Virus record (IMG/VR): IMGVR_UViG_3300027861_000128
Span: 1-31,842 of that record
Length of the DNA: 31,842 nt
Direction: 5' to 3' (one strand)
Source: a virus
The notes under the pieces were generated by a model. The model did no database searches and was not told the DNA's origin. It worked only from the letters and a program-made list of their open reading frames with translations. Of this stretch, positions 30,272 to 31,842 are shown piece by piece. A program made the position numbers and the translations under genes. Position 1 is the stretch's first letter; each line of letters opens with the position of its first letter.

Positions 30272-30532
30272 ATGGCAATAAGAAAAACTACAAAAGGTAA
30301 AGGTAGGAATTTTAGGACAACTGAAGAAGGAGCTGGAATGACTGCTAAAGGAGTTAAAGAATATAGAAAGAAAAATCCTAAAAGTAAACTAAAGACTGCA
30401 GTTACTAAGTGTGATGTCAAAGTAGGTACTGAAGCTTACAAAAGACAAAAAGCATTTTGTAGTAGATCTAAAAGTTGGGATGGAGAAAGAGGCAGAGCAG
30501 CTAGAAAGCGCTGGTGCTGTAGTAGATTTTAA
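30272..30532 (+). CDS. small basic Cys-containing protein, 86 aa, DUF6321-like
   Basis: An 86-residue protein. It has GAGMTAKGVKEYRKKNPKSK followed by LKTAVTKCD, then FCSRSKSW, ERGRAARKRWCCSRF at the end. The order GMTAKG - Y - NP-S-LK - C - FC-RSK-W - R-RW-C matches a small phage protein family I recall as DUF6321, also seen fused to larger proteins. Four cysteines in the C-terminal half could hold a metal. It is the last gene of the rightward unit before the bidirectional terminator. The role is unknown; DNA binding fits its charge. Confidence 0.75.
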   Translation: MAIRKTTKGKGRNFRTTEEGAGMTAKGVKEYRKKNPKSKLKTAVTKCDVKVGTEAYKRQKAFCSRSKSWDGERGRAARKRWCCSRF

Positions 30533-30580
30533 TTAGGAACAATAAAAAACTGGGCACCATACCCAAAGTTCCTGTAACCA

Positions 30581-30613
30581 AAAAAGGGGAAGTCGTAATG
30601 ACCTCCCCTTTTT
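30581..30613. terminator. bidirectional intrinsic terminator between convergent units
   Basis: AAAAAGGGGA (30581-30590) pairs with TCCCCTTTTT (30604-30613), with GTC/GAC pairs inside and a GTAAT loop. A residues on one side and T residues on the other serve both strands. It lies between the end of the rightward gene at 30532 and the leftward genes ending at 30618 or 30670. The rest of 30533-30660 shows nothing else apart from the micro-ORF. Confidence 0.85.
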
Positions 30614-30617
30614 ATAT

Positions 30618-30659
30618 TTAGCACCATGGGCAAAATCCGCCCGGACAGTTTTCACACAT
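30618..30659 (-). CDS. candidate 13-residue peptide with two CxxC pairs
   Basis: ATG at 30659 to TAA at 30618 on the minus strand encodes MCENCPGGFCPWC: four cysteines in two CxxC pairs in 13 residues. It begins 10 bases after the stop of the 51-residue gene and ends five bases before the terminator hairpin, so it would be the last frame of the leftward operon. Such composition is unlikely for random AT-rich DNA and could bind zinc or act as a redox peptide. There is no proof of translation. Confidence 0.35.
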   Translation of the reverse strand: MCENCPGGFCPWC

Positions 30660-30669
30660 AATTTTAATT

Positions 30670-30825
30670 TTAGAATCTATAAGTAATACCAAAAGCAAAT
30701 ATAAAACCTCCACTAGCTATAGCTAAAGTGTTAGGATTTAAATTGATTTTTTGTTTATGTAGTATCATATTGCTAACTGCAAAGCTAGCTAGGCTTATAC
30801 CACCTATTATTGCTAATTTTCTCAT
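30670..30825 (-). CDS. small membrane protein, 51 aa
   Basis: ATG at 30825 overlaps the stop of the upstream gene (ATGA on the minus strand, 30822-30825). The 51 residues hold two hydrophobic stretches, LAIIGGISLASFAVSNMI (about 4-21) and TLAIASGGFIFAFGI (about 33-47), joined by a short polar turn (HKQKINLNPN), and end YRF. The N-terminus MRKLAIIGG could also be read as a signal anchor. I recognise no family. The tight overlap chain back to the reductase gene supports real translation. Confidence 0.65.
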   Translation of the reverse strand: MRKLAIIGGISLASFAVSNMILHKQKINLNPNTLAIASGGFIFAFGITYRF

Positions 30826-31082
30826 CCTTTTATTTTTATTATAAGATAAACGTTAGAAAACATTATACTTATCAAAATAATAGCTGCATATATTATAGCA
30901 TCACCTAAATAGGGTTTAACTGCTAAAGTAAACGCAGATAAAGTTACCATTTTAATAAATAAACTTCCGTACATAATACCATAGCCGGCTTTTGCAAACC
31001 GACTAGTTAGTATTATTACCATAAATGTTATTACAAGAACCAGTATTGCAGCAACAAATCCGTATGCAGCTGATGCTATCAT
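30822..31082 (-). CDS. small membrane protein with three hydrophobic helices, 86 aa
   Basis: An 86-residue, very hydrophobic protein. Helices lie at about 8-27 (GFVAAILVLVITFMVIILTS), 37-55 (YGSLFIKMVTLSAFTLAVK) and 62-83 (AIIYAAIILISIMFSNVYLI). The start ATG overlaps the TGA of the reductase gene (ATGA, 31079-31082) and the end overlaps the 51-residue gene in the same way, so all three are probably translated together. A holin-like or small transport role is possible. The second helix loosely recalls AtpI-type proteins, but I would not name it so. Confidence 0.7.
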   Translation of the reverse strand: MIASAAYGFVAAILVLVITFMVIILTSRFAKAGYGIMYGSLFIKMVTLSAFTLAVKPYLGDAIIYAAIILISIMFSNVYLIIKIKG

Positions 31083-31842
31083 TTTATTTCGCAGCCGTCT
31101 GCACCACAGGCAATTTCTCCAGCAAGATCTGTTTCATCCTCTGTTTCAATAATCTTACTAAGATCAATATCTTTAAGATGTGTCATTGCCATGTCATATT
31201 GGACTTTACTTATATCTTCAAATGGTGCTTGAGTATATGTACCACCATCGTAAGGTAGTACAGATAGACCATTGTAATGATCTCTGTTTTCCCACATCCA
31301 TTTACCAGCTTGATCCCACTCTGTTTGTTTTAAACTAACAGTAGCTGAAACATTGTGAGTGTTAGATCCTTTTCTATGGCCTGGCTTAACCCACTCAGTA
31401 GCAACCTTTTTAATTCTTTCAAGTAAATCAAATGGTGATTCACCTCTTAGTATAGAACCTTTAGGTGCTTTTTGTGGTATACTAATTACAGCTGTATCAT
31501 GAGGTCTGAAAAACTCATCTTCAATTAACTCAGGATGATTAGTAGATAAATACTTATACATAGATTCGTTTTTACCAACTCTGATTCTACGCGTGTAATA
31601 ATCATTATGCCATGCGTGAATACCAGATGAAGTTCCTAGCGCCAGAGATGTCGTCCCAGCAGGCTTCACTGTCGTGCATCTTGCAGCTGGATTAATACCA
31701 ATTGCTTTAGCTGTCTTTGTATTCTCTCTTTTTACTATATTTGCAGCGGCCTTCATATCCAACGGCAGCACAGCGGCACTCGCGATTCCTGTCATTGATA
31801 CACCGATAAGGGCGTCCTTCTCTGTCGTATCTCTCCATACAT
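31079..31842 (-). CDS. nrdJ: class II (B12-dependent) ribonucleotide reductase, C-terminal part
   Basis: The minus-strand frame is open to the right edge; the first residues seen are VWRDTTEKDALIGVSMTGIA, so the internal Met at 31795 is not the true start. CTTVKPAGTTSLALGTSSGI is the conserved barrel-strand signature of the adenosylcobalamin-dependent ribonucleoside-triphosphate reductase, followed by HAWHNDYYTRRIRVGKNE and HNVSATVSLKQTEWD. The tail has a CGADGC pair (CX4C), the redox-active cysteines that reload the active site. The enzyme reduces ribonucleotides to deoxyribonucleotides in the cytoplasm for phage DNA synthesis and needs no iron centre or oxygen. About 250 residues are present and the remainder lies beyond the window. 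The stop is coupled to the next gene by ATGA. The edge-proximal codons are richer in G and C than those further on. Confidence 0.88.
   Translation of the reverse strand, partial: VWRDTTEKDALIGVSMTGIASAAVLPLDMKAAANIVKRENTKTAKAIGINPAARCTTVKPAGTTSLALGTSSGIHAWHNDYYTRRIRVGKNESMYKYLSTNHPELIEDEFFRPHDTAVISIPQKAPKGSILRGESPFDLLERIKKVATEWVKPGHRKGSNTHNVSATVSLKQTEWDQAGKWMWENRDHYNGLSVLPYDGGTYTQAPFEDISKVQYDMAMTHLKDIDLSKIIETEDETDLAGEIACGADGCEIK

Follow-up and report, generated by a model that had tools for sequence, protein, structure and literature searches.

A four-cysteine micro-ORF at the end of a ribonucleotide reductase operon belongs to a microprotein family in uncultured phages of flavobacterial type

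The micro-ORF and its surroundings

The DNA analysed here, called the window, is a virus record of 31.8 kb (IMGVR_UViG_3300027861_000128, 31,842 nucleotides). Close to one edge, a minus-strand operon runs from a ribonucleotide reductase gene through two small genes to a micro-ORF of 13 codons, and meets a convergent virion operon at a hairpin (Table 1). The micro-ORF encodes MCENCPGGFCPWC, in which four cysteines are spaced CxxC-x4-CxxC, that is, two CxxC knuckles in 13 codons. Its GC content is 0.50, against 0.29 for the 51-aa gene and 0.33 for the window. The first-pass annotation had described a micro-ORF with this cysteine spacing between a 51-residue gene and a terminator, in a GC-rich patch. 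Translation and position bear this out, and the observation was correct and indeed understated.

Table 1 Features at the operon junction of the window
Feature	Position	Strand	Remarks
Small basic protein gene, last of the convergent virion operon	30272..30532	+	Far side of the junction; from the ORF list
Second terminator-like hairpin	30550..30566	-	1 found against 1.0 expected by chance
Near-perfect inverted repeat, AAAAAAGGGG..CCCCTTTT	about 30580..30613		Directly beyond the micro-ORF end
Micro-ORF, MCENCPGGFCPWC and stop; Cys4 microprotein gene	30618..30659	-	13 codons and TAA; from translation and relatives
Start context, AATTAAAATT-ATG	30660..30672	-	A/T-rich; 10 nt from the stop of the 51-aa gene to the micro-ORF start; A at -3 and -6
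51-aa gene, putative membrane protein (by eye)	30670..30825	-	Usual upstream neighbour of the micro-ORF
86-aa gene, putative membrane protein (by eye)	30822..31082	-	Optional operon member
Class II (RTPR-like, B12-dependent) ribonucleotide reductase gene, 3' part	31079..31842	-	Ends CGADGCEIK; from profile matches

The reductase fragment matches TIGR02505 in a profile search (E 1.1e-21), the 5' part of the gene lying beyond the window edge. A full-length relative matches the same model at E 1.1e-81, which is under the equivalog cut-off, PF21995 at E 1.2e-8, which is over its cut-off, and also PHROG 367. A search of the family libraries gave no accepted match for the 51-aa and 86-aa genes. The terminase of the window is closest to those of flavobacterial phages (63% to Caudoviricetes sp. 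MW202828 and about 45% to Flavobacterium elemo phages), and this similarity suggests a host in the flavobacterial group.

The inverted repeat is probably a bidirectional terminator between the convergent operons. An 81-nt stretch holding the hairpin folds with -30.3 kcal/mol (z -4.15 against shuffled sequences). The second hairpin falls within positions 30540-30579 (GGTTACAGGAACTTTGGGTATGG, minus strand), a stretch that is nearly unchanged in many loci with differing flanking genes.

Family members and evidence for coding

The micro-ORF belongs to a family of microproteins in uncultured phages of flavobacterial type, defined by a length of 12-19 codons, the spacing C-x2-C-x3/4-C-x2-C and a stop no more than a few codons beyond the last cysteine, all of which the window micro-ORF has. 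A viral scan for CxxCPGGxCPWC gave 21 further contigs, with an ATG immediately 5' and a TAA immediately 3' in every one. Wider patterns led to four forms. A1 is MC(E/D)(N/G)C(P/T/L)GG(F/I)CPWC, A2 is MC(G/P)LCLGG(I/T)CEYC with 1 or 2 further residues, and B is MC(P/E)xC(N/G)GYCxxC. D is N-terminally extended (for example MSEKNTCPFCGGYCGLC and MENCPLCGGHCGLC) and measures 12-19 residues from the nearest in-frame ATG. The relatives are 12-19 residues long, end at the last cysteine or just beyond, and have as a family trait a glycine between the two CxxC pairs. With the window included, the family comprises 159 loci (55 type A, 32 type B and 72 N-extended type D); removing duplicates leaves 105 micro-ORF DNA sequences and 147 surroundings.

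Not every pattern match was accepted. The D pattern, CPxC[NGSD]GxCxxC and a stop, occurs in 98 viral contigs against three for the reversed pattern, and by that measure a few members of type D could be coincidental. In one wider scan, eight of the 31 matches (L023, L024, L026-L029, L031, L032) did not have the context typical of the family and were set aside as chance; L026, L028 and L032 among them are likewise 13-codon four-Cys ORFs. In another wide scan, 29 of 83 matches lay in longer proteins and were dropped. The loci fetched by the reductase (L034-L113, see below) were kept out of one family scan, so that no contig was counted twice.

A scan of 84,980 cellular genomes returned 17 stretches, with a pattern that would miss the A2 and N-extended D forms. 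The single family member among them, MCDNCLGGFCPWC, is on a phage-like 3-kb contig in a Flavobacteriaceae MAG (L219), and is counted on top of the 159 loci. The other cellular stretches, such as MCSDCTGSGCSHC (L207) and MCTICSGYCYCC (L217), were taken as chance.

The gene is single-copy: 29 records were searched, one (G018) was set aside as a chance match, and the remaining 28 family records all hold exactly one member. One extra pattern match, in G029, contains an in-frame stop, and the reversed pattern was found in none of the 29 records. In the window, the strict cysteine pattern occurs once, as against no occurrence in 3000 order-1 Markov sequences of equal length. A chance ORF is ruled out by this control, together with the intact relatives in the family scans and the comparison with the reversed D pattern.

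Most of the scans fixed the Cys codons, and the sole unbiased test of the cysteines is therefore the sample fetched by the reductase alone. The first-pass annotation had named retention of the four cysteines with synonymous changes as the check on its reading, and a broken frame or lost cysteines in relatives as the contrary outcome. The micro-ORF is present in 24 of the 80 loci of this sample, many of which are close relatives; several of the other 56 have too little downstream sequence to tell. In all 24 the frame is intact and the four cysteines are kept, their codons differing only between TGT and TGC, and the glycine is kept as well. A three-Cys form of up to 25 codons was not found in the sample, apart from one unrelated TTG frame (L052).

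The synonymous share of codon differences in frame is 0.44 for A1, 0.82 for A2 and 0.62 for B, against 0.06-0.27 in the other sense frames; it is also raised in antisense frame 1 (0.26-0.42). The counts are over pairs, take no account of ancestry and contain the Cys columns that the search had fixed. Codon 4 of A2, left free by the search pattern, is written with five different Leu codons. The free columns of B appear close to neutral by eye, and there the residues inside the CxxC pairs vary freely. With the frame intact and the four cysteines kept through synonymous changes, a real four-Cys peptide gene is well supported at the level of sequence, and we hold with high confidence that the micro-ORF is a translated and selected gene.

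The start sites were also compared. A stop lies 3-14 nt 5' of the ATG in 48 of the 55 type A loci. A 31-aa extension of the window micro-ORF from a GTG (30618-30713) was rejected, because that frame is closed just 5' of the ATG in most of the relatives found by the A1 scan. The base at -3 is A in 77% of the type A upstream sequences (31 distinct) and in 67% of those of type B (15 distinct); the share is 35% for random ATGs and 44% for the 54 ORFs of at least 150 aa in the same contigs. At -6 the micro-ORFs have an A in 52-53%, level with the ORFs of at least 150 aa (56%) and above the random ATGs (29%). According to the available part of PMC6847099, initiation in F. johnsoniae is promoted by A at -3, -6, -12 and -13, and the enrichment at -3 agrees with the preference as described there. 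No Shine-Dalgarno sequence was seen in the start context of the window micro-ORF. Judged from such features, the micro-ORF appears to be translated in these uncultured phages.

Reductase company and other genomic contexts

A class II reductase lies upstream in all 34 type A loci that have at least 700 nt of upstream sequence (32 by motif and 2 by reading); the other 21 are too short upstream for this test. Between the reductase and the micro-ORF, genes of 86 aa, 51-55 aa and 39 aa come and go, and the micro-ORF is constant. The same class of reductase is upstream in 11 of 29 testable B loci and in none of 69 testable D loci.

A reductase is nevertheless present somewhere in 40 of 45 micro-ORF records (14/16 and 26/29), and the five without it are contigs of 25-44 kb. 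The type A records, and the B records in which the micro-ORF is at the reductase, have the weak PF02867 match of a class II enzyme. The remaining B and D records have a strong, class I-like PF02867 match, and the reductase of L314 is typed as NrdA by NCBIfam. Most loci of the non-A forms are in the late region of phages whose reductase is class I-like. The B forms away from the reductase are found there, many of them close to a peptidase M15 endolysin; for D, the full reading of contexts covers two regions (L311 and L313).

Among 22 records selected by their terminase, the micro-ORF is found in six of nine with a reductase and in none of 13 without, the six including two N-extended forms and the nine including G072, where the contig ends within the reductase gene. 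The hypergeometric p, computed by hand, is about 0.001; the association is inflated, and its weight reduced, because the reductase and the micro-ORF are neighbours on fragmentary contigs. For records of at least 40 kb, the figures are four of six and none of two.

Phages with a reductase and no micro-ORF also exist, namely G065, G067 and the cultured immuto, phi14:2, MaF61 and Panino, of which immuto, phi14:2 and MaF61 were picked for their reductase. In 26 records with a reductase no micro-ORF was found behind it, the only other match being frame-broken (G054), and a looser pattern applied to 25 of these gave no member: one match (G044) has an open frame with no ATG upstream, and the other extra matches have in-frame stops by eye. 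Fourteen records of cultured phages (W01-W14) gave 35 pattern matches, none of them family-like; those in 14 loci were translated (the first per record and two more) and the rest judged by eye. The match in Panino is on the strand opposite an annotated gene. Nine cultured relatives (W06-W14) have neither a reductase match nor a family member.

In 12 of the 80 reductase-fetched loci (L071, L073, L076, L077, L080, L086, L094, L102, L105, L106, L109 and L112; ten by strict motif, L076 and L086 by reading), the class II reductase is followed by a different Cys-rich protein resembling DUF5522, never together with the micro-ORF. The one such protein that was tested matches DUF5522 (PF17653) at E 2.5e-15; the literature search found no mention of this domain. 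Like the micro-ORF product, it is a small Cys-rich protein behind a class II reductase in related phages, but it has roughly 26-50 residues and another spacing, CCxxxCxHCP, a motif that is absent from MCENCPGGFCPWC. The presence of two different Cys-rich small proteins behind one enzyme strengthens a thiol or metal reading.

The first-pass annotation had speculated on a redox or metal link to the reductase of the same operon. The constant position of type A behind the class II reductase, the presence of a reductase in most records and the DUF5522-like parallel speak for a link, which thus has a stronger footing in position and co-occurrence than that annotation could know. The link would not be one of strict co-operonic coupling, given the many relatives outside the reductase operon and the reductase phages that lack the micro-ORF.

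The terminator hairpin is found in one orientation in 18 type A loci and as the exact reverse complement in 17, mixed within peptide types, which suggests that inversions at this repeat are frequent. Between the micro-ORF and the hairpin, 11 loci that were checked have a tRNA gene, and in these the hairpin is about 90-100 nt further on. The tRNA was confirmed in six (L117, L121, L122, L130, L185 and L196), as tRNA-Ala (TGC) or tRNA-Arg (TCT).

Candidate functions of the peptide

On balance we favour the explanation that the micro-ORF encodes a translated, single-copy phage microprotein, most likely a minimal Cys4 metal (zinc) knuckle that keeps company with a reductase. The micro-ORF would be translated as the last cistron of the operon from its A-rich start site, and the peptide would fold around one metal ion, probably Zn2+, held by the four cysteines. 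The metal-bound peptide would then dock on a larger partner. The near-constant company of a phage reductase suggests that the partner, or the need, may lie in reductase or thiol metabolism. The knuckle is judged most likely because the four cysteines and the glycine are strictly kept, because CPxCxG is frequent, and because the residues within the pairs vary freely and the reductase tails need no replacement (see below). We lean towards metal binding as the main function, with slightly better than even confidence; a direct tie to reductase or thiol metabolism is a serious possibility that falls somewhat short of probable.

Family libraries are insensitive to peptides of less than 20 residues, and the 13-mer is too short for a profile test and may be too short for a stable fold. 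For the long form of L200, with 20 aa, Pfam had no accepted match, and a search of solved structures gave weak matches to zinc proteins (best E 0.031, no single stretch being significant). Several known systems have partial likenesses. DnaJ zinc repeats have four CxxCxGxG motifs; they resemble the micro-ORF product in the CxxCxG with which the motif starts, whereas here one CxxCxG is closed by a second CxxC. METP, a designed miniaturised rubredoxin (PDB 5sbg and others), is also very short and was matched in the search of solved structures at E 4.7, which is not significant. It is artificial and has a PDB chain of 30 residues; at most it shows that Cys pairs in so short a peptide are able to bind a metal. 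In the available part of PMC10716476, the Haloferax zinc-finger micro-proteins of the HVO_0758 type, with two C(P)XCG motifs, are likewise very small and have two CxxC knuckles that are thought to hold one zinc. They have fewer than 70 residues, whereas here the pairs are 3-4 residues apart in a peptide of 12-19, and the likeness is one of Cys motifs and not a claim of sequence homology.

A second reading is that of a thiol-redox helper, in which the CxxC pairs would alternate between the dithiol and disulfide states, relaying electrons from thioredoxin or glutathione of the host to the cysteines of the reductase tail, as a minimal stand-in for a redoxin. We retain it because of the reductase company noted above, although we consider it rather unlikely. 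Of the 32 B loci, 15 have a thioredoxin-like ORF, recognised by motif, in the 600 nt upstream, in some cases directly before the micro-ORF, and the one tested matches PF00085 at E 2.9e-7; the same motif was found in only one of 72 D loci and in none of 55 A loci. PF00085 was matched in seven of 20 records, but in none of the 11 with a class II reductase or type A. The thioredoxin-like neighbour, moreover, retains only one cysteine at its active-site region; in the late region (L175, L177, L183 and others) this protein has an export-signal-like start. One pair of the peptide can be CPWC, which is near the CPYC of glutaredoxins, but the pairs vary widely (CPWC, CEYC, CGLC, CGSC, CDGC), unlike a tuned redox site. 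The CPxC pair and the partnership with a reductase are in common with glutaredoxin and NrdH redoxins. The thioredoxin fold has about 75-110 residues, and a glutaredoxin, thioredoxin or NrdH fold is impossible in 13 residues; nor are the pair residues of the micro-ORF conserved. Replacement of a missing reductase tail is excluded: the tails seen in both reductase classes retain their own Cys pair, and so there is nothing missing for the micro-ORF to replace.

The peptide might instead be a host take-over factor, binding RNA polymerase, a protease or a defence protein with or without a metal, in which case the reductase link would reflect shared phage ancestry. Small phage proteins often act on the host. 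This is also the theme of PMC11323111, in the part of it available. Because the gene occurs now in the reductase operon and now in the late region, it does not require a constant operon partner, and the carriers examined resemble one group of flavobacterial phages. Within one terminase group, however, presence tracks the reductase in the comparison given above, itself inflated by adjacency on fragments, and we regard a take-over role as unlikely.

Cys attenuators work by ribosome stalling at Cys codons. A leader peptide of this kind, in which stalling controls the hairpin or the next gene and the peptide is a by-product, would fit the four Cys codons immediately before a strong hairpin and the overlap of most D and some B forms with the start of the next gene. 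It is disfavoured, and we give it very little weight. Past the hairpin, genes run on the opposite strand, both in the window and, judged by eye, in the A1 loci shown; the window has no same-strand downstream gene for a leader to regulate, whereas the overlapping B and D loci have one. In the 11 loci where a tRNA follows, the hairpin is too far away for direct coupling. The glycine and the spacing are conserved as well, and neither is needed for stalling.

The overlaps deserve separate treatment. An ORF of at least 45 aa in another frame of the same strand overlaps the micro-ORF in 62 of the 72 D loci and in 13 of the 32 B loci when ATG, GTG and TTG starts are allowed (75 of 104 together, or 59 of 104 by ATG starts only). 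These ORFs are of several families, most with a signal-peptide-like start by eye. Since the micro-ORF is the part common to all contexts, the overlaps are taken as probable later additions to it; for D the reverse is possible. So many D loci overlap another ORF that the D pattern could partly be a by-product there, and the reversed-pattern control is compatible with such a partial origin. Free of overlap are 49 of 55 A, 19 of 32 B and ten of 72 D loci (two of the ten at contig ends). In the six type A loci with an overlap, the other ORF extends into the hairpin and is not signal-peptide-like. That the Cys codons in general reflect an overlapping signal peptide or a structured RNA is likewise disfavoured and highly improbable, in view of these overlap-free loci, the several families of overlapping genes around one constant micro-ORF, the highest synonymous share in frame 0, and the ordinary RNA folds of the micro-ORF (z from -0.5 to -1.1, with A1, A2 and B represented by one locus each) together with the lack of an accepted Rfam match for its region, which exclude an RNA element.

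Returning to the Cys4 knuckle, we see in the micro-ORF product a Cys-rich microprotein well below its known counterparts in size; for part of the family, the overlapping coding is unusual as well. No report of the family was found in a literature search that did not extend to Fremin et al. 2022 (small phage genes). Gene finders easily miss such small genes and family libraries are blind to them, and thus a conserved single-copy phage gene stayed hidden. If it binds metal, the peptide would be among the shortest natural metalloproteins, and it is short enough for chemical synthesis and direct test; the reductase link would offer a handle on how phages tune the enzyme for DNA precursors. Dual coding of this sort, in which a Cys4 peptide overlaps signal-peptide-like starts from several genes, would be unusual. 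In its boldest form, which we put forward as speculation with the odds clearly against it, the proposal is of one of the smallest metalloproteins: a single-copy Cys4 peptide of 12-19 residues that serves the reductase as metal-bound cofactor, regulator or electron shuttle, changes place between reductase operon and late region, and in many phages shares its DNA with the signal peptide of an unrelated exported protein, a single short stretch then yielding a metal knuckle from one frame and an export signal from the other.

It is worth adding that other Cys-rich small ORFs were seen. The longer proteins dropped from the wide scan are mostly of a 51-62-aa family, MCxxCxGGGC(S/T)xC.., found in other phages (L116, L118, L119, L125, L127, L128, L131, L134, L135 and others), which has the same N-terminal Cys pattern and, by eye, Shine-Dalgarno-like sites. 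A second Cys-rich micro-ORF, MENCPFCGSCTCN, is at L316:6501-6542 (-), in a record that also has a type B member. In the window, another frame within the reductase gene holds a 43-aa ORF rich in Cys and Arg (31707-31838, minus strand), which recurs in many relatives and is probably a by-product of reductase conservation.
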